DNA from: Actinoplanes sichuanensis
GTDB taxonomy: Bacteria > Actinomycetota > Actinomycetes > Mycobacteriales > Micromonosporaceae
Direction: 5' to 3'
Assembly (NCBI RefSeq): GCF_033097365.1
Contig: NZ_AP028461.1
Coordinates: 1,426,001-1,490,000, forward strand
Length of the DNA stretch: 64,000 nt
The stretch's first letter is position 1, and the number at the start of each line of letters is the position of its first letter. Position numbers and translations under genes: made by a program. The notes under the pieces are model-generated. The model was not told the DNA's origin. It searched no databases and saw only the letters and a program-made list of their open reading frames with translations. Shown here piece after piece: positions 42,009 to 63,381 of this stretch.

Positions 42009-45000
42009 GTGTCACTGGACCCCGGAACCGCCCCGCTGCTGGGCGCACGCCGCTTCCTCACCCGCGAGACGGTCGGCGATCACGGGCGCACCCTGCACCG
42101 GGTCGACAACAGCGAGTGGGACGCCTTCTACCGCGACCGCTGGCGCTACGACAAGGTCGTCCGGTCGACCCACGGTGTCAACTGCACCGGCTCCTGCTCG
42201 TGGAACGTGTTCGTCAAGGACGGGCTGATCACCTGGGAGCACCAGGCCACCGACTACCCGACCACCGGGCCCGACTCGCCGGACTACGAACCTCGGGGCT
42301 GTCCGCGTGGGGCGAGCTTCTCCTGGTACGAATACTCGCCCTCGCGCGTGCGTCACCCGTACCTCCGTGGTGTCCTCGCCGAGATGTTCCGTGAGGCGCG
42401 GCAGCGTCTCGGCGACCCGGTCGCCGCGTGGGCGGAGATCGTCGAGACGCCGCTGAAAGCGCAGGCCTACAAGGCGCAGCGCGGGCGCGGCGGGTTCGTG
42501 CGGGCGTCCTGGGACGAGGCGATCGAGCTGATGGCGGCCGCGCACGTCTACACCGTGAAGACGTACGGCCCGGACCGTGTCGTCGGTTTCTCGCCGATCC
42601 CGGCGATGTCGATGGCGTCGTTCGCGGCCGGCACCCGCTATCACGCGCTGCTCGGCGGCACCCTGCTCAGCTTCTACGACTGGTATGCCGACCTGCCGAT
42701 CGCGTCCCCGCAGATCTGGGGTGACCAGACCGACGTGCCCGAGGCGGGCGACTGGTGGAACTCGACCTACCTGATGATGTGGGGCTCCAACATCCCGGTC
42801 ACGCGTACGCCGGACGCGCACTTCCTGGCCGAGGCCCGGTACAAGGGCACCAAGGTCGTCGCGGTGAGCCCGGACTACGCGGACAATGTGAAGTTCGCCG
42901 ACGACTGGCTGGCCCCGCACCCGGGCACCGACGGCGCGCTCGCGATGGCGATGGGCCACGTGATCCTGACCGAGTTCTTCCGCGACCGCGAGGTCCCGTA
43001 CTTCCTCGACTATGTCCGTAAATACACCGACCTGCCGTTCCTGGTGACGATCGTGGACGGCAAGGCCGACCGGTTCCTCACCGCCGCGGATCTCGGCGAA
43101 GCGGACGGCGAGCACAAGACCGTCTTGATCGACTCGCGTTCCGGCGAGTTGATCACGCCGAACGGCTCTCTGGGCTACCGCTACGGCGAGCCCGGCAGGT
43201 GGAACCTCGATCTCGGTGAGGTCGTTCCGGAGATCGGCGTGAAGTCCGACGAAGCCGTCGAGATCGAGCTGGCCCGGTTCGACATCGGCGACACCGAGGG
43301 CGGCACCACGATCCGCCGCGGAGTCCCGGTGCGCCGGGTCGGCGAGCATCTCGTCACCACGGTCTTCGACCTGATCATGGCGACGTACGGGGTGAAGCGC
43401 GGCGACCTACCCGGCGAATGGCCGACCGGCTACGACGACGCCGAGTCCCCGAACACCCCGGCCTGGCAGGAGCGCATCACCGGCGTCGACGCGAAGCTGG
43501 CGGCCCGGATCGGCCGCGAGTTCGCCCGCAACGCCGAGCGCAGCAACGGCCGCTCGATGATCGTCCTCGGTGCCGGCGCCAACCAGTGGTTCCACTCCGA
43601 CATGACCTATCGCGCGTTCATCTCGCTGGTCACGCTGACCGGCTGCCAGGGTGTGAACGGCGGCGGCTGGGCGCACTACGTCGGCCAGGAGAAGGCCCGC
43701 CCGGTCACCGGCCAGCAGCACATGAGCTTCGCCTTCGACTGGCAGCGCCCGATGCGGCACCAGGCGTCGACGCCGTTCTGGTATCTGCACACCGACCAGT
43801 GGCGCTACGAGCGCGTCCCGGCCGACGAGCTGGCGTCCCCGCTGGGCACCGGCCGGTTCGCCGGGATGGCGTTCGCCGACACGGTGGCGGCCGCGCAGCG
43901 GATGGGCTGGAGCCCGGGCCACCCGTTCTTCAACCGCAACCCACTGGACATCTCGGACTCCGCGCGGGCGGAGGGTATCGGAACCCAGGAGTACATCGTC
44001 CGCGAACTCCAGGCCGGAAACCTGAAACCGGTCGCCGAGGACCCGGACGACCCGGCCAACTTCCCGCGCTGCCTGACCCTGTGGCGGGCCAACCTGCTCG
44101 GCTCCTCGGGCAAGGGCAACGAGTACTTCATGCATCACCTGCTGGGGGTCGACTCCTCGAAGACCGCCGCCGAGTGCGAGCCCGGCCAGCGTCCCCGCGA
44201 CGTCACGTGGCGCGACGACGCCCCGGTCGGCAAGCTCGACCTGCTGACCACGATGGACTTCCGGATGACCAACACCGGTCTGCACTCCGACCTGGTCCTG
44301 CCGGCCGCCACCTGGTACGAGAAGCACGACATCTCGACCACCGACATGCACCCGTTCGTGCACGCGTTCAGCCCGGCCGTGGAACCGCCCGGCGACGCGC
44401 ACACCGACTACGACACGTTCCTGGCCCTGGCCGACAAGGTCAGCGAGCTCGCCGAGACCCATCTCGGCACCCGGACCGACGTGCTGGCCGCGCCGCTGCA
44501 GCACGACACCCCGGACGAACTGGCCATGCCCGGCGGCCGGGTCCGCGACTGGAAGTTCGGCGAGTGCGAGCCGGTCCCCGGCAGGACCCTGCCGAAGCTG
44601 ATCGAGATCGAACGCGACTACACCCTGATCGGCCGGAAGATGCGTACGGTCGGCCCGCTGCTCGACAAGCTGGGCACGACCACCAAGGCCATCACCGTCG
44701 ACGTCACCGACGAGATCGCCTACCTGAAGCACCAGAACGGCGTCATCGACGGCCGCCCGTCGCTGGCCACGGCCGACCGGATGTGTGAGGCGATTCTGGC
44801 CTTCTCCGGGACCACCAACGGCCGGATCGCCCACGAAGGCTTCAAGGAGCTGGAGAAGCGCACCGGTCAGAGGTTCACCGACCTGATCGAGGGGCACGAG
44901 AAGGACCGGGTCACCTTCGAGGAGACCCAGCAGGCGCCGCAGCCGGTCTTCACCAGCCCGGAGTGGTCCGGCTCGGAGAAGGGCGGCCGACGCTACTCTC

Positions 45001-45626
45001 CGTTCACGATCAACGTCGAGCGCCTCAAGCCGTGGCACACCATCACCGGCCGCCAGCACTTCTTCGTCGAGCACGACTGGGTGGCCGAACTCGGCGAGCA
45101 ACTGCCGGCCTTCCGGCCGCCGCTCAACATGGCCCGGCACTTCGGTAGGCCCGGCGACGCGGTCGACGGCGGAGTGACGGTACGGTTCCTGACCCCGCAC
45201 GCCAAGTGGTCGATCCATTCGATGTACCACGACAACGAGCTGATGCTGGCGCTGTCCCGGGGCGGTCCGGTGATCTGGATGAGCGTCCAGGACGCCCAGA
45301 AGATCGGGGTCCGCGACAACGAGTGGATCGAGGCCCACAACCGCAACGGCGTCGTCGTGGCCCGCGCGGTGGTCAGCCACCGGATGCCCGAGGGCACCGT
45401 CTTCCAGTACCACTCGCCGGAGCGCACGGTGAACGTCCCCAAGGCTGAGAAGTCCGGTAGGCGGGGCGGCTACCACAACTCGATGACCCGGCTGCTGGTC
45501 AAGCCGACCCACCTGGCCGGCGGACACGCCCAGCTCACCTACGCCTTCAACTACTACGGCCCGATCGGCAGCCAGCGCGACGAGATCACCGTGATCCGCC
45601 GCCGCACGCAGGAGGTGGAGTACTGA
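42009..45626 (+). CDS. narG: respiratory nitrate reductase alpha subunit
   Basis: 1205 residues, full family length. Molybdenum bis-MGD catalytic subunit reducing nitrate to nitrite on the cytoplasmic side. The FS0 iron-sulfur motif is HGVNCTGSCSWNVF plus the downstream Cys in PRGCPRGASFSWYE. The Asp ligand region is YDWYADLPIASPQIWGDQTD. The C-terminal molydopterin domain includes FLTPHAKWSIHSMYHDNELM. GTG start after AAGGA. First gene of narGHJI, with the DevR-type box upstream; TGATG overlap with narH. Confidence 0.96.
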   Translation: MSLDPGTAPLLGARRFLTRETVGDHGRTLHRVDNSEWDAFYRDRWRYDKVVRSTHGVNCTGSCSWNVFVKDGLITWEHQATDYPTTGPDSPDYEPRGCPRGASFSWYEYSPSRVRHPYLRGVLAEMFREARQRLGDPVAAWAEIVETPLKAQAYKAQRGRGGFVRASWDEAIELMAAAHVYTVKTYGPDRVVGFSPIPAMSMASFAAGTRYHALLGGTLLSFYDWYADLPIASPQIWGDQTDVPEAGDWWNSTYLMMWGSNIPVTRTPDAHFLAEARYKGTKVVAVSPDYADNVKFADDWLAPHPGTDGALAMAMGHVILTEFFRDREVPYFLDYVRKYTDLPFLVTIVDGKADRFLTAADLGEADGEHKTVLIDSRSGELITPNGSLGYRYGEPGRWNLDLGEVVPEIGVKSDEAVEIELARFDIGDTEGGTTIRRGVPVRRVGEHLVTTVFDLIMATYGVKRGDLPGEWPTGYDDAESPNTPAWQERITGVDAKLAARIGREFARNAERSNGRSMIVLGAGANQWFHSDMTYRAFISLVTLTGCQGVNGGGWAHYVGQEKARPVTGQQHMSFAFDWQRPMRHQASTPFWYLHTDQWRYERVPADELASPLGTGRFAGMAFADTVAAAQRMGWSPGHPFFNRNPLDISDSARAEGIGTQEYIVRELQAGNLKPVAEDPDDPANFPRCLTLWRANLLGSSGKGNEYFMHHLLGVDSSKTAAECEPGQRPRDVTWRDDAPVGKLDLLTTMDFRMTNTGLHSDLVLPAATWYEKHDISTTDMHPFVHAFSPAVEPPGDAHTDYDTFLALADKVSELAETHLGTRTDVLAAPLQHDTPDELAMPGGRVRDWKFGECEPVPGRTLPKLIEIERDYTLIGRKMRTVGPLLDKLGTTTKAITVDVTDEIAYLKHQNGVIDGRPSLATADRMCEAILAFSGTTNGRIAHEGFKELEKRTGQRFTDLIEGHEKDRVTFEETQQAPQPVFTSPEWSGSEKGGRRYSPFTINVERLKPWHTITGRQHFFVEHDWVAELGEQLPAFRPPLNMARHFGRPGDAVDGGVTVRFLTPHAKWSIHSMYHDNELMLALSRGGPVIWMSVQDAQKIGVRDNEWIEAHNRNGVVVARAVVSHRMPEGTVFQYHSPERTVNVPKAEKSGRRGGYHNSMTRLLVKPTHLAGGHAQLTYAFNYYGPIGSQRDEITVIRRRTQEVEY

Positions 45627-47128
45627 TGCGCATTCGAGCGCAGGTCGCCATGGTGATGAACCTGGACAAGTGCATCGGCTGCCACACCTGCTCGGTCACT
45701 TGCAAGCAGACGTGGACCAATCGTGAGGGCACCGAGTACGTCTGGTTCAACAACGTCGAGACGAAGCCGGGCATCGGCTACCCGAAACATTACGAGGACC
45801 AGGAACGCTGGAAGGGCGGCTGGAAACTCGACCGCAAGGGCCGTCTGGTTCTCCGCAGCGGGGGTCGGGCCAAGCGGCTGAGCCGGATCTTCGCCAACCC
45901 GGACCTGCCGACCATCGACGACTACTACGAGCCGGCCACCTTCGACAAGGACATCCTGGTCAACGCGCCGGCCGGGCTCAAGGACACCCCGGTCAAACAG
46001 CCGTATTCGAGGCTGACCGGTGAGCCCATGTCGATCGAGTGGGGCGCGAACTGGGAGGACTCGCTGGGCGGTGACTCGGGTAAGAGCGACCCGAACTTCA
46101 AGAACATGGTCGAGAAGGTCAAGTTCGAGTTCGAGAAGACCTTCATGTTCCACCTGCCGCGGATCTGCGAGCACTGCCTGAACCCGGCGTGTGTCTCGGC
46201 GTGTCCGTCCGGCGCCATGTACAAACGCGAGGAGGACGGCATCGTCCTGGTCGACCAGGACCGCTGCCGCGGCTGGCGGATGTGCGTGTCGGCGTGCCCG
46301 TACAAGAAGGTCTACGTCAACCACGCCACCGGCAAGGCCGAGAAGTGCACCTTCTGCTTCCCGCGGATCGAGGCCGGACAACCCACCATCTGCAGCGAGA
46401 CGTGCGTCGGTCGCCTCCGCTACCTGGGCATTCTCTGGTACGACGAGGACGCCGTGCTCGCCGCCGCGTCGGTGCCCGAGGAGGAACTGCTGGACGCCCA
46501 GCGCGCCGTCTTCCTCGACCCGTACGACCCGGACGTGCAGCGGGCCGCCCGCGAAGCCGGCCACCCGGAGGAGTGGATCGAGGCCGCCAAAGCCTCGCCG
46601 GTGTGGAGACTGATCAGCGAGTACCGGATCGCGCTGCCGCTGCACCCGGAGTACCGGACGCTGCCGATGGTCTGGTACGTGCCGCCGCTGTCGCCGGTCC
46701 TGGACGCCGCGGGTGCCGCCGGACGCGACGACACGAACGCCGACGACATCTTCCACACCATCGACGACCTGCGGATTCCCGTCGAATACCTGGCGTCGCT
46801 GTTCACCGCCGGGGACACCGCGGTGGCCGGCGGGGTGCTGATGAAGCTGGCCGCGATGCGCGCCTACATGCGGGCCCGCACGCTGGACGGCACCGTCGCC
46901 CAGGAGTTGCTCGACGGCATCGGCATGACCGGCGAACAGGTCGAGGCCATGTACCGGCTGCTGGCCATCGCGAAGTACGACGAGCGGTACGTCATCCCGG
47001 CGGCACACCGCGGTCAGGCCGCGGCGCTCGAGGAACTCGGCGGCTGCTCGCTCGACGGCGAGGGCGGCCCGGGGATGGGCGGCAGCGGCCCGGTCGCGGT
47101 CAGCATCGCCACGAGAAGGAGTCGCTGA
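45626..47128 (+). CDS. narH: respiratory nitrate reductase beta subunit
   Basis: 500 residues. Electron-transfer subunit with four iron-sulfur clusters, visible as cysteine groups CIGCHTCSVTCKQTW, CEHCLNPACVSACPSGAM, CRGWRMCVSACPYKK and KCTFCFPRIEAGQPTICSET. The CxxW variant in the third group marks the [3Fe-4S] site typical of NarH. AGGAGG precedes the ATG, which overlaps the narG stop. Binds NarG and docks on NarI. Confidence 0.96.
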   Translation: MRIRAQVAMVMNLDKCIGCHTCSVTCKQTWTNREGTEYVWFNNVETKPGIGYPKHYEDQERWKGGWKLDRKGRLVLRSGGRAKRLSRIFANPDLPTIDDYYEPATFDKDILVNAPAGLKDTPVKQPYSRLTGEPMSIEWGANWEDSLGGDSGKSDPNFKNMVEKVKFEFEKTFMFHLPRICEHCLNPACVSACPSGAMYKREEDGIVLVDQDRCRGWRMCVSACPYKKVYVNHATGKAEKCTFCFPRIEAGQPTICSETCVGRLRYLGILWYDEDAVLAAASVPEEELLDAQRAVFLDPYDPDVQRAAREAGHPEEWIEAAKASPVWRLISEYRIALPLHPEYRTLPMVWYVPPLSPVLDAAGAAGRDDTNADDIFHTIDDLRIPVEYLASLFTAGDTAVAGGVLMKLAAMRAYMRARTLDGTVAQELLDGIGMTGEQVEAMYRLLAIAKYDERYVIPAAHRGQAAALEELGGCSLDGEGGPGMGGSGPVAVSIATRRSR

Positions 47129-47739
47129 TGAACCGCTCGCACCTCTTCCAGCTGGCCTCCCTGCTGCTCACCTACCCCGATCGGGAACTGCTCGACGCCG
47201 GCGACGAACTGCGCGCCGCCGCGGCCGGTGTCGACGAGTTCGAGCGGTTCGTCGAGTGGCTGCTCAGCGGCACCCTGACCGAGGTGCAGCGGCACTACGT
47301 GGAGACCTTCGACCTGCGCCGGCGCTCCGGGCTGTACCTCACCTACTACCTGCACGGCGACACCCGTAAGCGCGGGATGGCGCTGCTCATGCTCAAACAG
47401 CGGTACCGGGCGCACGGACTGCGTCTGGCCGACGGGGAACTGCCCGACCTGCTGCCGATCGTGCTGGAGTTCGCCGCCACGGTCGGGCCCGGCGACGGGG
47501 AGGCACCGTTGCGCCAGCACAGGCAGGGGATCGAGCTCCTGCGTTCGGCATTGCACGACACTCGTACGCCGTACGCGCTGATCTTGGATGTGGTCTGCGC
47601 CCAGCTGCCGCAACTGACCGACGAAGATCTCGCCGCGCTGACCTTTCTCGCCTTCGACGGGCCGCCCGTCGAGACCGTCGGTCTCGACGAGGTGGGCCTC
47701 GGCCCCAATCTTGCTCCTTATGCGGAGGTGTGCAGATGA
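47128..47739 (+). CDS. narJ: nitrate reductase molybdenum-cofactor assembly chaperone
   Basis: 203 residues, all-helical NarJ/TorD-type chaperone (LFQLASLLLTYPDRELLDAG, then LRRRSGLYLTYYLHGDTRKR and GMALLMLKQRYRAHGLRL). Needed for cofactor insertion into NarG and for membrane docking. ATG overlaps the narH stop as TGATG and its own stop overlaps the narI start. Confidence 0.93.
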   Translation: MNRSHLFQLASLLLTYPDRELLDAGDELRAAAAGVDEFERFVEWLLSGTLTEVQRHYVETFDLRRRSGLYLTYYLHGDTRKRGMALLMLKQRYRAHGLRLADGELPDLLPIVLEFAATVGPGDGEAPLRQHRQGIELLRSALHDTRTPYALILDVVCAQLPQLTDEDLAALTFLAFDGPPVETVGLDEVGLGPNLAPYAEVCR

Positions 47740-48470
47740 GCACCCTTGTCTGGATCGTGCTGCCCTACGCCTGCCTGACCGTCTTCGTGGTCGGGCACGT
47801 GTGGCGGTGGCGGCACGACCAGTTCGGCTGGACCACCCACACCAGCCAGCTCCTGGAGAACCGGCTGCTGCGGCTCGGCTCGCCGCTCTTCCACCTCGGC
47901 GCCTTCGGAGTGATCGGCGGGCACGCGATGGGCCTGCTCGTCCCGGCCTCGTGGACGTCGTCGCTGGGCGTCTCCGAGCACACCTACCACCTGGTGTCGG
48001 TCACCGGCGGCACGATCACCGGCATCATGCTGGTCGTCGGCCTGGCGTTGCTGATCGCCCGCCGCTTCGTCAGCGGCCGGGTCCGGCGGGTCACCACGAC
48101 CATGGACAAGATCTTGTACGCCGCACTGGCCGCCATGGTCGTGCTCGGCATGAGCGGCACCGTGGTGATCAACCTGCTCGGTGACGGGTACGACTACCGG
48201 GAGACGATCGCCGTCTGGTTCCGTGGCATCTTCTGGTTCCAGCCCGACCCGGCCCTGATGAGCGACGCCCCGCTGGTGTTCCAGTCGCACGCGATCGGCG
48301 GGTTCCTGTTCCTGGCGCTGTGGCCGTTCACCCGGCTCGTGCACGTGTGGTCGGCCCCGCTCGCCTACCTGTGGCGCCCGTACGTCGTCTACCGCGGCCG
48401 CCGCACGCCCGCCCCGGCGGCCCAACCGGCTCCGGCGGCTGTCCGGAAGGTTGTCACACCCTCGTCCTAG
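47736..48470 (+). CDS. narI: respiratory nitrate reductase gamma subunit
   Basis: 244 residues, five helices. Membrane b-type cytochrome taking electrons from menaquinol. Likely haem-ligand histidines lie in PLFHLGAFGVIGGHAMGLLV and FQSHAIGGFLFLALWPFTRL, VHVWSAPL. ATG 47736 is used for GGAGG 7 nt upstream. A Pro/Ala-rich C-terminal tail follows the last helix. Its TAG stop forms the first three bases of the likely -10 of the next gene. Confidence 0.94.
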   Translation: MSTLVWIVLPYACLTVFVVGHVWRWRHDQFGWTTHTSQLLENRLLRLGSPLFHLGAFGVIGGHAMGLLVPASWTSSLGVSEHTYHLVSVTGGTITGIMLVVGLALLIARRFVSGRVRRVTTTMDKILYAALAAMVVLGMSGTVVINLLGDGYDYRETIAVWFRGIFWFQPDPALMSDAPLVFQSHAIGGFLFLALWPFTRLVHVWSAPLAYLWRPYVVYRGRRTPAPAAQPAPAAVRKVVTPSS

Positions 48471-50663: not shown

Positions 50664-51869
50664 ATGAGCTCACCGCAGACCCCGACCACCCGAACGCCGG
50701 GCCGGGCCGGACTGATGCTCGGCCTGGCGACCGTCGGGTTCGCCGTCAACTTCTGGGCGTGGGCACTGCTCAGCCCGCTCGCCACGAAGTTTCAGGCGGC
50801 GCTGCACCTGACCCCGTTCCAGCAGGCACTGCTCGTCGCCGTGCCGGTCGTGGTCGGCTCGGTGGGACGGATCCCGGTCGGCGCGCTGACCGACCGTTAC
50901 GGCGGCCGGGTGATGTTCCCGCTGATCTCACTCATCACCATCGTGCCGGTTCTCTACCTGGGCCTGTTCGGGCACGACGCGCTCACGTCGCTGCTGGTCG
51001 GCGGGTTCTTCCTGGGCATCGGCGGCACCGCGTTCGCGGTCGGTGTCCCGTTCGTCAACGCCTGGTTCCCGCCGGAGCGGCGCGGGTTCGCCGTCGGTGT
51101 GTTCGGCGTCGGCATGGGCGGCACCGCGATCAGCGCGCTCACCACGGTCAAACTGGTCGACGCCGGTAGCACCGCCACCCCGTTCCTGATCACCGCGGGG
51201 GTGCTGGCCGCATACGCCGCGATCTCCTGGCTCGTCCTCCGCGATGCGCCCGGGCGCCCGGTGCCGACCGCACCGCTCGCGCAGCGTCTCGCCGCGGTTC
51301 TCCGACTCAAGATCACCTGGCAGGCGTCCGCCCTGTACGCCGTCGCCTTCGGTGGCTACGTCGCCTTCTCCGTCTACCTGCCCGCCTACCTGAAGACCGC
51401 CTACGGCCTCACCCAGGCCGACGCCGCCAACCGGATGGCCGGCTTCGTGCTCCTCGCCGTGATCATGCGGCCCGTCGGTGGCTGGCTCGCCGACCGGTTC
51501 GCCGCCAGCCGGGTCCTCGCCGTCGCGCTCGGTGTGGTCGTCCTCGGTGCGGTCGTGCAGTCGTTCACCCCCGGCCTGGCGCCGGTCGGCACGATTGCCT
51601 TCCTCGCCATGGCGGCCGCGCTCGGCACCGGCAGTGGCGCCACGTTCGCCCTGGTCGCGCAGACCGCGCCGGCCAACCAGGTGGGTGCGGTCACCGGTGT
51701 CGTCGGCGCCGCGGGTGGTCTCGGTGGCTTCATTCCGCCGCTGGTGATGGGCGTGATCTACGGCGAGTTCCAGTCGTACGCCCTCGGGCTCGCCCTTCTC
51801 GGGGTCGTCGCCCTGGCCGCTCTGCTGCTCGACGTCCTCTCCGTCGGCCGCCGCCCGGTGACCGCCTGA
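50664..51869 (+). CDS. narK: nitrate/nitrite transporter, NarK family (MFS)
   Basis: 401 residues, twelve helices. GRIPVGALTDRYGGRVMFPL is the MFS loop. The NarK nitrate signatures are FVNAWFPPERRGFAVGVFGV, GMGG and, in the second half, GTGSGATFALVAQTAPANQV, GAVTGVVGAAGGLGG. Moves nitrate in and/or nitrite out for the NarGHI reductase 3 kb upstream. GGAGTGG precedes the ATG. A perfect terminator hairpin follows. Confidence 0.92.
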   Translation: MSSPQTPTTRTPGRAGLMLGLATVGFAVNFWAWALLSPLATKFQAALHLTPFQQALLVAVPVVVGSVGRIPVGALTDRYGGRVMFPLISLITIVPVLYLGLFGHDALTSLLVGGFFLGIGGTAFAVGVPFVNAWFPPERRGFAVGVFGVGMGGTAISALTTVKLVDAGSTATPFLITAGVLAAYAAISWLVLRDAPGRPVPTAPLAQRLAAVLRLKITWQASALYAVAFGGYVAFSVYLPAYLKTAYGLTQADAANRMAGFVLLAVIMRPVGGWLADRFAASRVLAVALGVVVLGAVVQSFTPGLAPVGTIAFLAMAAALGTGSGATFALVAQTAPANQVGAVTGVVGAAGGLGGFIPPLVMGVIYGEFQSYALGLALLGVVALAALLLDVLSVGRRPVTA

Positions 51870-55915: not shown

Positions 55916-56533
55916 TCATCGCCGCGGGCGGCGCACCGGAAGGCCGTCCAGCAGGGCGTCCAGCGTTTCCGGGTCGGCCCAGCCGTTCAGCGCCACGTCA
56001 CCCGACGTGGTCACCGTCACCTCCAGGCGGTCCGGGCCGGTGACGTCGCGCAGGCGGTCGGTGAGGTGCACGAACTCCTGGTTCGTCGAGCCCGCCCACG
56101 GCCGGTCGTGATCCAGTCGGTCCTGCTCGAACGGGCCCGCGACCAGCAGATCCGTCGCTTCCAGAAGGGCGGCCACATCGCGGTCGCCGCCTTGCAGGTA
56201 CGGGTAGGCGTACCCGGTGAAGGTCATCACGGTGAGGCCCGCCCGCCGCACGCCGGAGGCGACCGCGGCGAGACCCGCCGCCTGGTCGAAGGGTTCGCCG
56301 CCGAGCAGGGTGACGCCGCTGGTGCCGGCCGCGACGACCCGGGCGATCAGATCGGTCGCGCTGGTCGGCGTGCCGCCGCGGGTGGTGAACAGGTGCGGGT
56401 TGAAACAGCCGGGGCAGCGGATCGAGCAGCCCTGCACCCAGATCGCGCTGCGCTCGCCGGGCCCCTCGGCGATCGTGCGGTCGACGAACCGGGCGACCCG
56501 GACGATCGGGTCAGATGTCGACGATGCGGCCAT
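55916..56533 (-). CDS. NrdG-like 4Fe-4S single-cluster (radical SAM) protein
   Basis: 205 residues. AIWVQGCSIRCPGCFNPHLF gives the CxxxCxxC cluster motif, followed by GVTLLGGEPFDQAAGLAAVA (SAM-binding GGEPF) and MTFTGYAY, as in anaerobic ribonucleotide-reductase activases. No nrdD lies nearby. It is the last gene of a five-gene overlapping operon with Ycf46-, DUF1257- and DUF2997-like genes, so it probably serves that system rather than nucleotide reduction (inference). The ATG overlaps the HhH gene's 3' end by 23 bp. Confidence 0.8.
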   Translation of the reverse strand: MAASSTSDPIVRVARFVDRTIAEGPGERSAIWVQGCSIRCPGCFNPHLFTTRGGTPTSATDLIARVVAAGTSGVTLLGGEPFDQAAGLAAVASGVRRAGLTVMTFTGYAYPYLQGGDRDVAALLEATDLLVAGPFEQDRLDHDRPWAGSTNQEFVHLTDRLRDVTGPDRLEVTVTTSGDVALNGWADPETLDALLDGLPVRRPRR

Positions 56534-57215
56534 ACGGCAGGTCCGGTTGCGGTGCGGGCGCCGGTGGCCGGCAGGTCAGGCGGTCGCGGACCGCGGCGAA
56601 CTGGTGTGGCGCCAGCTCGGCCGCGGCGGCGAATTCGGCGACGGTGGCGAAGCCGTTCCGGTCTCGGCGGGCGGCGACGGCGCGAGCGGCCCGTTCCGGT
56701 CCGATCGCCGGAAGCGAGGCGAGTTCGTCCAGGTTCGCGGCATTGACGTCAAGCAGCAGCGGTACGGCCGGAGCCGGCTCCCGCAGGGCCGTCTGCACCG
56801 CGGGCGGAAGCGGCGATGCCGAGGGCGGAAGCGGCGATGCCGGGGGAGGGGCCGGCGCATAGGCCCATGTCTGCACCCGGCGCCGCTGCTCGGCCAGCCA
56901 CTGCAGCCAGCTGCTGTTGATCACGACGGCGTGCACCACCGACGCCATCCACGTGCACACCCAGAGCAGGGCCATCAGTGCCGCCGCGTTCGAATCCTCC
57001 GGCAGGCTGTCACCGGCGAAGAGGAACACGTTGGCGGCCACGCTGTAGCAGATGCCGGCGATCCACCACCCGGGCCGGCGGGCGCGCAGACCCACATACA
57101 GGTAGCCGGCGACACTGGCGCAGCCGAACGAGAGGATCGGCGTCAGCAGCCAGGCGCTGTTCGCCACCTTCCAGGCGCGGGTCGGAGGTGCCGGCTCAGC
57201 CGGGGTCCACGTCAC
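56511..57215 (-). CDS. membrane protein fused to helix-hairpin-helix domain
   Basis: 234 residues. Four hydrophobic segments in residues 15-105 (LLTPILSFGCASVAGYLYVG; WWIAGICYSVAANVFLFAGD; ALMALLWVCTWMASVVHAVV), a Pro/Ala/Ser linker, then a ComEA-like HhH domain (LLDVNAANLDELASLPAIGP, ERAARAVAARR, GFATVAEF) at about 155-215. HhH domains usually bind DNA or mediate protein contacts. GTG 57215 lies inside the DUF2997 gene (20-bp overlap). A linker repeat (PLPPSASPLPP) reflects a short tandem duplication. Function unknown. Confidence 0.7.
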   Translation of the reverse strand: MTWTPAEPAPPTRAWKVANSAWLLTPILSFGCASVAGYLYVGLRARRPGWWIAGICYSVAANVFLFAGDSLPEDSNAAALMALLWVCTWMASVVHAVVINSSWLQWLAEQRRRVQTWAYAPAPPPASPLPPSASPLPPAVQTALREPAPAVPLLLDVNAANLDELASLPAIGPERAARAVAARRDRNGFATVAEFAAAAELAPHQFAAVRDRLTCRPPAPAPQPDLPYGRIVDI

Positions 57216-57414
57216 GGTTCACCTGCTGGTGCCACGCGGTCTGCTGCTCGCGCGTGTAGTCCGTGGTGTAGGCGCTGTCCTCGACCCGGCCGTCGACCAG
57301 GTCCTCCAGCACGGCTATCCAGTCGAGGCAGCGGTCGCCGAGAACGTCGAGGGTCTCGGCGGTGACAGTGCCGTCGGGGTGGACCGTGACCTCGATGCGT
57401 GGGCGCTCGGTCAT
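57196..57414 (-). CDS. DUF2997 protein
   Basis: 72 residues. RIEVTVHPDGTVTAETLDVL, then GDRCLDWIAVLEDLVDGRVE match DUF2997, a small family characteristically encoded beside DUF1257. The single conserved Cys (GDRCLDW) is present. The C-terminal DSAYTTDYTREQQ tail is typical. ATG overlaps the DUF1257-like stop (ATGA). Role unknown. Confidence 0.78.
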   Translation of the reverse strand: MTERPRIEVTVHPDGTVTAETLDVLGDRCLDWIAVLEDLVDGRVEDSAYTTDYTREQQTAWHQQVNRDVDPG

Positions 57415-57857
57415 GCCCGCTCCCGGGCGATCTCGAAGACCATCCGCACCGAGGCGTCCGGCTCGACCGTCTCCGACTCCAGGCGCAGCCCGGCCACGGG
57501 TGCCTGTTCGCGAAGGCGTTCCAGCACCGCACGCTGGACCCGGCGGCCGTACGCGGCGTCCACCTCGGACACCTTCTGGGTCGCGCCCGCCTCGTCCGTA
57601 CCGCTGAAATGGGCTGACCAGAGGCCATCGGCCTCGCGGGAGAAGGACGCGGTGATGCCATCCGCCCAGCGGACCGTCGCCGTCTCGTCGGTCCGGCGGA
57701 CGTCGGCGCCGGTGTCGCGCAGGGCGTCGCCGAGCATGTCGGCGTCGCGCATGCGGGTGCCGACCCGGCAGACACCGTCGGCCCGGCGGTCGGCGGCGGC
57801 CTTGATCGCGGCGGCGCCGGCCATCGCCAACGGCACCAGAAGCATCGTCACACTCAC
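57411..57857 (-). CDS. DUF1257/Ycf35-like protein
   Basis: 148 residues. A short hydrophobic N-terminus (TMLLVPLAMAGAAAIKAAAD) precedes the DUF1257-like part: TRMRDADMLGDALRDTGADV, then VRWADGITASFSREADGLWS and VQRAVLERLREQAPVAGLRL, ending in a beta-strand with VRMVFEIAR. The match is by pattern and by the DUF2997/Ycf46 neighbours, so moderate certainty. GTG 57857 chosen for the G-rich site 6 nt upstream; starts 35 bp after the ATPase stop. Confidence 0.65.
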   Translation of the reverse strand: MSVTMLLVPLAMAGAAAIKAAADRRADGVCRVGTRMRDADMLGDALRDTGADVRRTDETATVRWADGITASFSREADGLWSAHFSGTDEAGATQKVSEVDAAYGRRVQRAVLERLREQAPVAGLRLESETVEPDASVRMVFEIARERA

Positions 57858-57892
57858 CGTGAACCCCCCGTTCCCGTGTGGTGGGTCACACC

Positions 57893-59445
57893 CTATCGCT
57901 CGGACAGTCCCCAGTCCTCGCCGCCGGTGGCGGAGATCGCACGGGTGCCCGCCCACTCGCGGAGGGCGATGATGTGCTCGGCCTGGGTGACGCTCAGCGG
58001 CACGATGCTCATCACCGCACCGACCAGGTCGTCCCGGCTCAGCGGCCGCCGCTCGGAGAACGCGTCGAACAGCCCGGTGGTGACCGCCTGTTCGATCTCG
58101 GCGCCGGAGTATCCGTCGGTCAGCCCGGCCAGTTCGGTGAGCAGGGCGTCGTCCGGTTCGACCCCGCCTGTCGCCCGCGGGTGACGCAGCGCCCGCCGCA
58201 GGTGGACCCGCCAGATCGCGAGCCGCTCGGCCTGATTCGGGAGATCGACGGAGAAGGTCTCGTCGAAGCGCCCCTTGCGGAGCAGTTCGGGCGGCAGGCC
58301 GTGGAAGGCGTTGGCGGTCGCGATCACGAAGACCGGGAACCGTTTCTCCTGCATCCAGGTCAGGAAGGTGCCGAACACCCGGGCGCTGGTGCCGGAGTCG
58401 GTGCTCCCGGTGCCGGCGAACCCCTTCTCGATCTCGTCGATCCACAGCACGGACGGGCGATGGCCTCGGCGGTCCGTAACGCGGTCCGCATGTTGTGCTC
58501 GCTGGACCCGACCACACCGTCGAACACCTTGCCGATGTCGAAACGCAGCAGCGGCATGCTCCACGCCGCGGCCATCGCCTTGGCGGTCAGTGACTTGCCG
58601 CAGCCCGGAATGCCGGTGATCAGCACGCCGCGTGGGGCGGGCAGGCCGTAGTCGGCAGCGTCGGTCAGCCACGATCCACGTCGTTTCAGCAGCCAGGACT
58701 TCAGCTTGCCCAGGCCGCCGACGTCGTCCAGGCTGAGGTCGGTGGCGACCACCTCCAGGAGACCGGACTTGCGTACCGTCTGGCGTTTCTCGTCGAGCAC
58801 GATGTCCAGTCCGGACAGATCCAGCACCGGGTTGCCGACCATCGCCCGGGCGTAGGCGTTCTCGGTCTCCTGCATGGTCAGCCCGGCCGCCGCGACCGCG
58901 AAGCTCTCCCGGCCCGCCTCGTCGAGCGCCACCCGCAGCCGGCCGCCGGCGGCGTTGGAACTGATCATCGTGTCCAGCAGGGTGCGTCGTTCGGCGGTCC
59001 CGGGCAGCGGGAAGTCCACGATCGTGACGTCCTTGGCCAGTTCCACCGGAAGCCGGAACAGCGGCGACATCAGGATCAGCGTGCGCGGATGCCGGCCGGT
59101 CCGGAACGTCTCGGCGATGTCCCGTAGCAGCCGGACCGTCTCCGCGTCGTCGAAGTTCGGATGCAGATCACGGAAGACGAACACGGCCGGCTCGTCGACC
59201 CGGTGAACCGCGCGCAGCGCGTCGGTGGCCCGCTGGGCGCCGGTGCGGGCCGTCCCGTCCGGTTGGATCAGCCCACCGGTACGCGTCCACGACCACACCG
59301 GCCGGGGCACCCGCACCAGATCCGGATGCCCGGCCACCGCACCGATCTTGTGCAGGGCACGCTGCTCCTCGTACGTCTCCAGATAGAGCACCGGAAACCG
59401 GGCCTTGAGCAGTTGCGCCAGCGTCTCCGGGAACGACCTCTCCAC
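57893..59445 (-). pseudogene. Ycf46-like AAA ATPase, frameshifted in this sequence
   Basis: Two overlapping frames together give about 517 residues, the normal Ycf46 length. First part (from GTG 59445): LLKARFPVLYLETYEEQRAL, RDLHPNFDDAETVRLLRDIA, then Walker [21 protein letters not shown]. After AEAIA the reading moves one base to [18 protein letters not shown] (Walker B), [46 protein letters not shown] and GYSGAEIEQAV. Restoring one C near 58455-58457 (GGG on the plus strand) joins them. Either a true one-base deletion or a sequence error. Leaderless promoter TACCCT at 59453-59458 (7 nt). Confidence 0.85.
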
Positions 59446-59626: not shown

Positions 59627-61174
59627 GTGAGACTCCACCGCAAGTCAGCCGGCGTGGCCGCCCTCGCAGTCGGCTCCGCCCTCGCGCTCGGGTTGAGCGC
59701 GAACACCCCGGCGCTGGCCGCCGAACCGACCGGGACCATCCGCGAGGCCGGTTCGGCCGACGCCATCGAGGGCAGCTACATCGTCGTGCTCAAGGACGGC
59801 GCCACCGAGGCCGGGCTCACCAGGTCGTACGGCGGTGCGGTCAAGCGCAGCTTCGGCAAGGCCGTCAACGGATACGAGGCCGCGCTGACCGAGACGCAGG
59901 CCAAACGACTGGCCGCGAACTCGAAGGTCGCCTACGTCGAGCAGAACCAGATCATCCGGCTCGCCGACACCCAGACCAACGCGACCTGGGGCATCGACCG
60001 GATCGACCAGGCCGGCCTGCCGCTGTCGACCACCTACACCTACCCGAACACGGCTTCGGGCGTGCACGCGTACATCATCGACACCGGCATCCTGACCACG
60101 CACAGCCAGTTCGGCGGGCGCGCGGTCAGCGGCTACGACTTCGTCGACAGCGACAGCAACGCCACCGACTGCAACGGCCACGGCACGCACGTCGCGGGCA
60201 CCGTCGGCGGCACCACCTACGGCGTGGCGAAGGCCGTGCAGCTGGTCGGCGTGCGGGTCCTCGACTGCGAGGGCGGCGGCACCACGGCCGGCGTCATCTC
60301 CGGCATCAACTGGGTGACCAGCAACGCGATCAAGCCCGCGGTGGCCAACATGAGCCTCGGCGGCAGCGCCAGCAGCACCCTCGACACCGCGGTGTCGAAC
60401 TCGATCGCGGCCGGTGTCACCTACGCCGTCGCGGCCGGCAACGACAACGCCAACGCGTCCAGCTACTCGCCGGCCCGGGTCGCCTCGGCGATCACCGTCG
60501 GCGCCACGACCAGCACCGACGCGCGGGCCAGCTACTCCAACTACGGCAGCACGCTGGACATCTTCGCCCCGGGTTCGTCGATCACCTCGGCCTGGTACAC
60601 CAGTACCTCCGCCACCAGCACGATCAGCGGCACCTCGATGGCCACCCCGCACGTGGCGGGCGCGGCGGCCCTGATCCTGCAGGCCAACCCGTCCTACACC
60701 CCGGCCCAGGTGGCCTCGGCTCTGACCGGCGCCGCGGTCAGCGGCAAGGTCACCAGCGCCGGCACCGGCTCGCCGAACCTGCTGCTGCAGGTCGGCTCCG
60801 GCGGCACCACCGAGCCGACCCCGACCGGCTGCACCGGCACCAACTCCACGGCGACCGCCATCCCCGACGCCGGGTCCGCGGTGACCAGCACCATCACCAT
60901 CGCCGGCTGCGGCCGCTCGGCCTCCTCGACCTCCACGGTCGCGGTGAACATCACCCACACCTACCGCGGTGACCTGGTGATCGCCCTGGTCGCACCGGAC
61001 GGCACCAGCTACAGCCTGAAGGCCAGCAGCAGCTCGGACAGCACCGACAACGTCAACACCACGTACACCGCGAACCTGTCCGGCGAGGCCGCCGACGGCG
61101 CCTGGAAGCTGTCGGTCCAGGACGTCTACTCGTCCGACACCGGCACCATCAACAGCTGGACCCTCACGGTCTGA
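59627..61174 (+). CDS. secreted subtilisin-like serine protease (S8) with P-domain
   Basis: 515 residues. Signal peptide (residues 1-30, ending PALAAEP), inhibitor I9 prodomain (SYIVVLKDGATEAGLTRSYG to about residue 105), S8 catalytic domain with Asp in YIIDTGIL, His in CNGHGTHVAG and Ser in SGTSMATPHVAGAAAL, then a C-terminal P-domain (CTGTNSTATAIPDAGSAVTS onward, about residues 403-515). Extracellular, proteinase-K-like. GTG 59627 follows AGGACCAGGGG. The P-domain is closely alike to that of the nuclease at 62266. Ended by a perfect 17-bp hairpin. Confidence 0.93.
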   Translation: MRLHRKSAGVAALAVGSALALGLSANTPALAAEPTGTIREAGSADAIEGSYIVVLKDGATEAGLTRSYGGAVKRSFGKAVNGYEAALTETQAKRLAANSKVAYVEQNQIIRLADTQTNATWGIDRIDQAGLPLSTTYTYPNTASGVHAYIIDTGILTTHSQFGGRAVSGYDFVDSDSNATDCNGHGTHVAGTVGGTTYGVAKAVQLVGVRVLDCEGGGTTAGVISGINWVTSNAIKPAVANMSLGGSASSTLDTAVSNSIAAGVTYAVAAGNDNANASSYSPARVASAITVGATTSTDARASYSNYGSTLDIFAPGSSITSAWYTSTSATSTISGTSMATPHVAGAAALILQANPSYTPAQVASALTGAAVSGKVTSAGTGSPNLLLQVGSGGTTEPTPTGCTGTNSTATAIPDAGSAVTSTITIAGCGRSASSTSTVAVNITHTYRGDLVIALVAPDGTSYSLKASSSSDSTDNVNTTYTANLSGEAADGAWKLSVQDVYSSDTGTINSWTLTV

Positions 61175-62265: not shown

Positions 62266-63324
62266 TCAGAGGGCCAAGGTCCAGGTGTTCAGATAGCCGG
62301 TGTCGCCGGAATAGTTGTCCCGCACGCTCAGGCGCCAGGCGCCGTTCGTCGTTTCCGAGGACAGGTTCACCGTGTATGTCGCGGTTATGTCGGCGGAGCT
62401 GTCGGTGCTGCTCGCGGATTTGAGGATGTAATAGGTGTTGTCCGGCGCGTACAGATAGATGGAGACGTCGCCGCGGAACGGGTGGACGACCTCGACATAG
62501 ACCGTCGAGGTCGTCGACGGAGTCGTCTTCGCGCAGCCGGAGATGGTGATCGTGCTCGTCACCGCGGAACCGGCGTCGGGGATCGTGACATCGGTGGCGT
62601 TCGTGCCGGTACAGGAGCCGCCGGTGGCCGTGGGCGACGTGGTGGTTCCCGATCCGATGGCCGTCACCACGGTCACCGTGCTGTTCGTGCAGGCGGCCGC
62701 ATAGGTCGTCAGCGCACTCTTCTCAGCGGTGTCCACGGTCAAGGCCCAACGGGTCTTCACCGCGGTCCATTCGGTGATGTAACGGCAGCGCACGCTCGCC
62801 AGGGACGGGACCCATTCGGCCGGATCCTGGTCGCCTTTCGACTGGTTCACGTTGTCGGTCACCGCGACCAGGGCGCGGGCGTCGCCCAGATCGTTGGCGT
62901 AGGCCTCACGCTGCGCCGACGTCCAGTTCCGGGAACCGGAATCCCACGACTCGGCCAGCGGGACCATGTGGTCGATGTCCAGGTCGGAAGGGTCGGTCCA
63001 GGTGGCGCCGTCGTAATAGGACAGCCATCGGCCGCCGCTCAGTGCACACCCGGAACCGACACTCGGGGTCGTGGTGGCCTCGGTGATCAGAACCTCGTAG
63101 CGGGTGTTGCAACCGTCGCCGTCGGCGTCGATCCAATGGTTGAACAGATCGCGGTCGTAGCCGGTGCGGACCTCGGTGGCGACCGGCAGATTCGCGACCA
63201 TGGTGCGCAGCGGCTGGGAGATCGTCGCGGCGCTGGCCGGTCCGGCGGTCGTCACGACGGCGATCAGAGCTCCGGCCAGGGCGGTCGCGGCCGCGGTGGC
63301 CAGTGCAATGCGTTTCCGGATCAT
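62266..63324 (-). CDS. secreted HNH (GmrSD-C/DUF1524-like) nuclease with P-domain
   Basis: 352 residues. Signal peptide (IRKRIALATAAATALAGALI to ASA), then a secreted HNH nuclease domain: HWIDADGDGCNTRYEVLITE, DLDIDHMVPLAESWDSGSRN and AVTDNVNQSKGDQDPAEWVP supply the Asp-His, Asn and Lys pattern of extracellular GmrSD-C-like nucleases. After a Thr/Ser linker, a P-domain (IPDAGSAVTSTITISGC to the end, about residues 240-352) like that of the neighbouring subtilase. ATG 63324 follows GGAG by 7 nt; the longer frame from 63381 lacks a signal-like start. Probably degrades extracellular DNA. Confidence 0.87.
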   Translation of the reverse strand: MIRKRIALATAAATALAGALIAVVTTAGPASAATISQPLRTMVANLPVATEVRTGYDRDLFNHWIDADGDGCNTRYEVLITEATTTPSVGSGCALSGGRWLSYYDGATWTDPSDLDIDHMVPLAESWDSGSRNWTSAQREAYANDLGDARALVAVTDNVNQSKGDQDPAEWVPSLASVRCRYITEWTAVKTRWALTVDTAEKSALTTYAAACTNSTVTVVTAIGSGTTTSPTATGGSCTGTNATDVTIPDAGSAVTSTITISGCAKTTPSTTSTVYVEVVHPFRGDVSIYLYAPDNTYYILKSASSTDSSADITATYTVNLSSETTNGAWRLSVRDNYSGDTGYLNTWTLAL

Positions 63325-63381
63325 GGGGGGTCTCCGGGTTCCTCGGGGGGTTGTCCGGATATTCTCGGCGACCTGTTTCAT

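Follow-up and report, generated by a model that had tools for sequence, protein, structure and literature searches.

A patchily distributed five-gene Ycf46-type ATPase cassette of Actinobacteria with a C-terminal tail common to two of its proteins

A stretch of 64,000 nucleotides from Actinoplanes sichuanensis (NZ_AP028461.1), called the window below and used for the numbering of all positions, contains a cassette of five genes, all on the minus strand, that runs from 59445 down to 55916. In the 5′ to 3′ order, these genes encode an AAA+ ATPase, a 148-residue protein, a 72-residue DUF2997 protein, a 234-residue membrane protein with a helix-hairpin-helix (HhH) domain, and a 205-residue radical S-adenosylmethionine (radical-SAM) protein. 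The last four genes overlap by 4, 20, and 23 bp, and the coordinates bear out what a preliminary description of this DNA had stated about strand and overlaps. The cassette is real, patchy in its distribution, and travels as one block, and within the genus it is either present or absent as a whole. Two of its unrelated proteins, the ATPase and the HhH protein, have the same short C-terminal tail, which suggests how a machine built from these proteins is assembled. No paper on the five-gene cassette or its tail was found in a literature search.

Loci for comparison were picked through DUF2997, roughly 8 kb of DNA to the left and right being read as far as the contig reached, and profiles of the five proteins were run over them. 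All five genes were present in 30 of 31 distinct loci, the exception (L053) ending at a contig edge. Three actinobacterial plasmids also match all five proteins with profiles made from the chromosomal loci alone; by Pfam alone, the DUF2997 protein of the Arthrobacter plasmid (19.0 versus 24.1) and the HHH_3 domain of the Paenarthrobacter plasmid (24.8 versus 27) fall short of the cut-off. Overall, the complete cassette was found in 33 of 34 other actinobacterial loci, so that the relatives of the five genes are neighbours elsewhere, as the preliminary description had proposed to check. The gene order is constant except in two loci (L049 and L050), where it is ATPase, DUF2997, radical-SAM, DUF1257-like, and HhH.

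Since the loci had been selected by DUF2997, a reverse test was run on 67 congeneric genomes. DUF2997 scored above the cut-off in 17 of these genomes, the profile of the 148-residue, DUF1257-like protein matched 17, and the radical-SAM protein was found in 17 at E < 1e-50, the next matches dropping to 1e-31; the 17 genomes are identical for the three proteins. This all-or-none presence, together with the fixed neighbourhood, supports the earlier proposal that the five genes work as one machine. DUF2997 was found in 13 of 298 genomes of the order, and a sample of the phylum gave a match in 7 of 396 genomes, above the cut-off in 2. At least two flanking open reading frames (ORFs) are common to just 19 of the 136 pairs of loci from Actinoplanes, which indicates that the block sits at several sites. 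A DUF2997 scan of contigs gave 5 loci. Of two scans of viral contigs, one found no relatives and the other a single match (L080) inside phage structural genes, judged to be due to chance.

The HhH proteins have ends such as GRIVDV and GRVLDF, and ends such as GGRAVEF are found in the ATPases, those of most Actinoplanes excepted. When ORFs of at least 100 residues in the window and 38 loci were scanned with the strict motif GRx[VIL][DE][FVIL]-COOH, 48 of 3458 matched, and all 48 were HhH proteins or ATPases. A slightly relaxed form is present in 34 of 35 HhH proteins (the other is cut by the contig) and 18 of 34 ATPases, and in none of 35 DUF1257-like, 35 DUF2997, and 34 radical-SAM proteins. 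Among database proteins, a set that overlaps that of the loci, the tail was found in 83 of 116 full-length ATPases, 17 of 18 HhH proteins, and 0 of 51 DUF1257-like proteins.

Related modules were found in other bacteria and in phages. A Paenibacillus polymyxa plasmid, found via the radical-SAM protein, encodes in a row an AAA protein, DUF1257 (28.3 versus 22.2 bits), DUF2997, and a radical-SAM protein, followed by two small proteins (L075, 9597-10937) with two hydrophobic segments each and the ends SRVIHF and KRVIRL. The phages were reached via the DUF1257 protein of this plasmid and then via that of HJ05. Aeromonas HJ05, Pseudomonas SM1, Rhizobium RHph_I4, and L338C encode an AAA protein and a protein 201-212 residues long, followed by DUF1257 and DUF2997, both of which score above the cut-off, with an additional 319-residue gene in between in SM1; genes for DnaB-type helicases lie within a few kb after the module in SM1, RHph_I4, and L338C. 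The triad of ATPase, DUF1257, and DUF2997 is also present on a Rhizobium plasmid and on Planktothrix plasmid p4, and the G397 element has an AAA protein, a protein at the DUF1257 position that has no Pfam match, and DUF2997. Of five loci from phages and a Rhizobium plasmid with the triad (L078, L079, L117, L118, and L120), four have genes for a DnaB-type helicase or a DNA polymerase nearby. DUF2997 has been described as spread across phyla and some viruses (excerpts of PMC13131479).

The ATPase profile matches all of these modules, and the actinobacterial HhH and radical-SAM profiles gave no match in the phage, Rhizobium, Planktothrix, and G397 stretches that were read. The core therefore consists of the ATPase, DUF1257, and DUF2997, and the actinobacterial version has the HhH and radical-SAM proteins as additions. 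In the loose form R-x-[VIL]-x-[FVIL], the tail occurs in 10 of 345 ORFs from 15 phage and plasmid loci, all ten in or beside Ycf46/DUF1257/DUF2997 modules: five proteins of the actinobacterial plasmids, the two Paenibacillus membrane proteins, and three proteins of 208-220 residues (HJ05, RHph_I4, and the Rhizobium plasmid). The L338C module carries it as well, and no loose tail was found in the SM1 module. Outside actinobacterial cassettes, the loose form was found in 3 of 2343 ORFs. The phage-type tail proteins belong to a single family; between the two Paenibacillus proteins there is at best a weak resemblance.

The preliminary description had taken the ATPase as one gene product, but the reading frame in the window is broken. 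The frame that opens at 59445 stops at 58360 and contains Walker A (58591-58614); from Walker B (58421-58450) onward the gene is in a different frame, which extends down to 57893. A protein database also lists a 361-residue piece for the same contig (P0072). The gene of A. xinjiangensis aligns with a single internal gap of one base, which lies near 58456 and immediately ahead of Walker B. Codon changes relative to A. xinjiangensis are alike on the two sides of the gap, with 54 synonymous and 43 not of 235 codons, and 22 and 15 of 97, before it and 44 synonymous and 42 not of 182 codons after it, which points to a recent lesion or an assembly error. A programmed frameshift is ruled out, as the ATPase is a single ORF in the related cassettes. 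Thus, the machine may be dead in A. sichuanensis, or the assembly may be wrong at one base.

Judged on its intact relatives, the ATPase combines AAA domains with the Ycf46-specific N-terminal domain and belongs to the Ycf46 type. The family hidden Markov model spans both domains of the Planktothrix, Paenibacillus, phage, and G397 ATPases; its N-domain part alone matches the Planktothrix protein at E 2.9e-38 and matches the other modules tested, SM1 weakly, and none of 5 ClpB-like controls. In the consensus, the first AAA-like domain lacks Walker motifs and the second has them. On the structure model of a relative, the protein is predicted to be a compact double-AAA+ ATPase with the D1-D2 plan of p97/Cdc48, and because of this model a p97-like way of working is suggested. 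With the CDC48 family model (TIGR01243), the two ATPase pieces of the window gave 30.7 and 43.8 bits against a cut-off of 802.65.

The DUF2997 protein passes PF11211 with 53.8 bits against a cut-off of 24.1, which confirms the identity first assigned to it, and a GxxC motif is present in 42 of 42 DUF2997 proteins. The assignment of the 148-residue protein to DUF1257 holds in part. The Pfam profile PF06868 did not match it at E values up to 10, gave no match for any of the 25 family members scanned with a limit of E = 1, and was found in none of 296 genomes of the phylum. UniRef labels some homologues "DUF1257 domain-containing", and hhalign against seven canonical or positional DUF1257 proteins gave 61% with a score of 33.2 across 105 columns, compared with 16.4 for the highest of 60 column shuffles, an earlier set of three DUF1257 sequences having given 75% over 66 columns. 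Position and profile speak for a probable divergent relative of DUF1257, and the protein was filed as DUF1257-like and not as a member. Its AlphaFold2 model has a pLDDT (predicted local distance difference test) of 80.6; fold searches with this model returned nothing at E 0.001 or better and gave no evidence of a new fold. A hydrophobic N-terminus was found in 33 of the 35 proteins from Actinobacteria and in 0 of 7 others, and the actinobacterial protein is probably located at the membrane.

The HhH protein passes HHH_3 (38.0 versus a cut-off of 27). It had been described as a four-helix membrane protein, but the protein encoded in the window shows about three hydrophobic segments, and among 35 family members a simple hydropathy rule gives three segments for 25, two for 6, and one for 4. 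It had also been regarded as an unusual addition, but it turned out to be a standard part, with an HhH match in each of the 33 complete actinobacterial cassettes, including two weak ones in L049 and L050 (87 and 69 bits). With the ComEA DNA receptor (TIGR01259), it has the HhH domain alone in common (23.9 bits versus a cut-off of 152.35). The suggestion that it is a membrane anchor is plausible and is strengthened by the tail in common with the ATPase.

The CxxxCxxC protein is, by its motifs and Pfam, a member of the radical-SAM enzyme family. It contains CSIRCPGC and passes Fer4_12 (100.1 versus 22) and Radical_SAM (33.0 versus 29.5), and the CxxxCxxC and GGEP motifs are present in 40 of 40 family members. 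The nearest solved structure by sequence is PflA (E 1.6e-7). As for the suggested role as an activase, the protein misses the NrdG equivalog cut-off (TIGR02491, 89.4 versus 126.1), and no glycyl-radical protein was found among the five; the A. sichuanensis genome has two Gly_radical matches, both outside the cassette. Its C-terminus resembles the initial part of DUF2997 (hhalign 87% across 31 columns, highest of 60 shuffles 8.9%; in an earlier, smaller set, a hairpin of 12-17 columns), a hint that the two interact or have a common origin.

Related radical-SAM proteins were also seen beside other ATPases. A. sichuanensis has a second one, 43% identical, near a ClpB-like AAA protein (L109, G000:C1:4879000-4898000). 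Other proteins nearby resemble, on visual inspection, a kinase, a caspase-type protease, and a CHAT protein, and the locus holds an AAA and radical-SAM system distinct from the cassette; the similar loci L110, L111, L113, and L116 showed just a ClpB-like and a radical-SAM protein. Plasmids of Polaromonas, Moellerella, Acinetobacter, Photobacterium, and Leisingera (L070-L074) share a conserved block of a large AAA protein, a PIN-domain protein, a 370-residue protein, a ClpB-like ATPase, and a radical-SAM protein. A DUF2997-like domain seen by eye in the 370-residue protein was rejected (hhalign 17%). When four of the Moellerella proteins were compared with PADLOC, the ClpB-like protein matched the AAA parts of candidate families and the radical-SAM protein weakly matched viperins.

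Table 1. Features of the cassette, in window numbering
Feature	Position	Strand	Basis
Ycf46-type AAA+ ATPase gene, frameshifted near 58456	57893..59445	-	Pfam, alignment; one ORF in relatives; N-domain profile of relatives matches Ycf46-type ATPases
361-residue ORF as assembled: inactive first AAA-like domain and Walker A of second, then out-of-frame end	58360..59445	-	ORF list, protein database P0072
148-residue DUF1257-like protein	57411..57857	-	hhalign versus canonical DUF1257, hydropathy, AlphaFold2 model; no Pfam match
Hydrophobic N-terminal stretch of DUF1257-like protein	57795-57845	-	hydropathy
DUF2997 protein (PF11211)	57196..57414	-	Pfam
Conserved GxxC of DUF2997	57328-57339	-	present in 42 of 42 DUF2997 proteins
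HhH membrane protein with Pro-rich linker	56511..57215	-	Pfam, hydropathy
Hydrophobic segments of HhH protein	57093-57155, 57015-57068, 56919-56975	-	hydropathy
HhH_3 domain	56571-56750	-	Pfam
C-terminal tail GRIVDI of HhH protein; motif common to ATPase tails of related cassettes	56514..56531	-	
Small radical-SAM protein (Fer4_12)	55916..56533	-	Pfam, motifs
Radical-SAM motifs CSIRCPGC; LLGGEPF	56405-56428; 56288-56308	-	motif match
Possible DUF2997-like C-terminal stretch of radical-SAM protein	55940-56029	-	hhalign

Near the cassette lie a subtilisin-like protease (59627-61174) and an HNH-type secreted nuclease (62266-63381), whose C-terminal domains are very similar by eye. Elsewhere in the window, a cluster resembling narGHJI nitrate reductase was seen by eye at 42009-48470, followed by a protein like those of the major facilitator superfamily at 50664-51869.

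The mechanism proposed here starts from gene content, linkage, the ATPase architecture in a model, the sharing of the tail, the GxxC motif, and the radical-SAM motifs. With slightly less than even confidence, we propose that the cassette encodes a remodelling ATPase that resembles p97 and has two small partners of its own, with the shared docking tail as its tether to the membrane, together with a radical-SAM enzyme. The ATPase would be the motor that opens or remodels a protein, with the DUF1257-like and DUF2997 proteins as its fixed partners. The HhH protein, membrane-bound and probably facing the cytosol, would place the machine at the membrane, and its free C-terminal tail, a copy of that of the ATPase, may allow the two proteins to bind one site on a partner that they share. 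The radical-SAM protein would be the chemical arm, acting on the protein opened by the ATPase or on the GxxC cysteine of DUF2997. Docking through the tail has, in our estimate, about an even chance, and assembly at the membrane seems about as evenly balanced; any target of the radical chemistry is distinctly doubtful.

A broader proposal, which we regard as possible and hold tentatively, is that the modules of Ycf46, DUF1257, and DUF2997 work like p97 and recognise R-x-[VIL]-x-[FVIL]-COOH as a free peptide at the C-terminus, that unrelated proteins acquired this tail to plug in, and that lineages swap the tail-bearing protein according to the task. The candidate tail bearers, by their sequences, would be the actinobacterial HhH proteins, the Paenibacillus membrane proteins, the phage proteins of 208-220 residues, and the ATPase itself. 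Ycf46 and Ycf35 are plastid and cyanobacterial proteins for which we know of no established molecular function, nor do we know of a biochemical activity for DUF1257 or DUF2997. A one-operon cassette and a six-residue tail offer a concrete binding hypothesis, namely, which partner binds the tail, and the phage and Paenibacillus modules provide independent test cases for it.

The likeness of the tails could be an accident of overlapping genes, codon bias, or post hoc choice of a motif. The motifs were taken from the sequences before counting, the end of the HhH gene overlaps the next start codon in 17 of 31 cases, and a DNA pattern for the tail was not enriched over a backward control in four whole genomes, although this pattern of GGN-CGN codons misses AGR arginines, glycine-less tails, and the G282 cassette itself. 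The genome counts also weigh against docking through the tail, as do 15 Actinoplanes ATPases that lack the tail although their HhH proteins have it. However, for 14 of the 16 ATPase tails and 12 of the 31 HhH tails, the gene has no overlap with the cassette gene that follows, so overlap may influence some of the HhH endings and not these; the loose form in the phage and plasmid loci is confined to the modules; and three control motifs gave 0, 0, and 2 matches inside cassettes versus 1, 5, and 13 outside. We consider an accident very improbable. A general tag on many host proteins is likewise unsupported, as the other matches at true stops in the four genomes are, by eye, ends of folded enzymes or non-coding frames. 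Some radical-SAM enzymes modify peptides, and the tail might instead be the substrate of the one in the cassette, the last residues of the HhH protein and the ATPase being modified to switch assembly. A radical-SAM gene is present in every complete tail-bearing cassette of Actinobacteria and in the Paenibacillus module, and the motifs are present in all 40 proteins. Yet tails also occur where the stretch that was read gave no radical-SAM match, in HJ05 (NRKLKL), RHph_I4 (RRAVKL), L338C (RRAVKL), and G397, whose ATPase ends in KRRIEL, and Pfam gave no SPASM-type domain for the radical-SAM protein of the window. This explanation seems improbable to us.

A machine for repair or assembly of redox or iron-sulfur (Fe-S) cofactors, in which the ATPase, DUF1257, and DUF2997 handle a cofactor protein and the 4Fe-4S protein serves as activase or electron donor, is an unlikely explanation in our judgement. 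The sole hint of cofactor assembly or repair comes from Synechocystis, in which DUF2997, ycf35, and fed7 form an operon, fed7 encodes a 4Fe-4S ferredoxin, and a fed7 null mutant is sensitive to iron limitation and needs the cluster cysteines (excerpts of PMC4284462). Excerpts of PMC7496141 describe a response of the slr0374/ycf46 operon to oxidative stress and to a lack of iron and credit a carbonic-anhydrase effect to Jiang et al. 2015, and the constant GxxC cysteine of DUF2997 would fit this explanation; but the NrdG cut-off is missed, no glycyl-radical or other cofactor enzyme was found in the cassette, and no radical-SAM protein was matched in the phage stretches that were read. A role in defence or conflict would account for the patchy presence within the genus, the location on plasmids, and the core triad in phages, and related radical-SAM proteins adjoin ClpB-like ATPases on proteobacterial plasmids and, in A. 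sichuanensis, lie near the kinase, caspase, and CHAT types mentioned above. Nevertheless, PADLOC returned generic AAA and weak viperin-type matches and no specific anti-phage family, the family profile scans recognised no toxin or nuclease among the cassette proteins, phages themselves carry the triad beside DnaB and DNA polymerase genes, and plastids of many red algal species keep ycf46 and ycf35 (excerpts of PMC5940233). We find a role in defence improbable.

Compared to the p97/Cdc48 double-AAA+ unfoldases, the cassette ATPase is alike in predicted fold and domain order; it differs in having no p97-type N-terminal cofactor domain, a length of about 520 residues, and a first domain without Walker motifs. 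The radical-SAM protein has CxxxCxxC and GGEP in common with the small activases NrdG and PflA, and it differs from them in having no glycyl-radical partner alongside and an extra C-terminal stretch that is possibly DUF2997-like. The phage and Paenibacillus modules resemble the cassette in that the triad is close together and, SM1 excepted, an unrelated neighbour ends in R-x-[VIL]-x-[FVIL], and the Paenibacillus module also has the radical-SAM gene. They differ in that neither gave an HhH match and the phages have no radical-SAM match nearby; the phages carry instead a protein of 201-220 residues without hydrophobic segments, and Paenibacillus carries two proteins with two segments each. Compared to the Ycf46-Ycf35-DUF2997 set of cyanobacteria and plastids, the ATPase has the same two domains, the DUF2997 proteins are homologous (hhalign 96.5%), and DUF1257 occupies the same position with a weak profile match. 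The actinobacterial units differ from this set by their extra HhH and radical-SAM proteins and by the hydrophobic N-terminus of the DUF1257-like protein.

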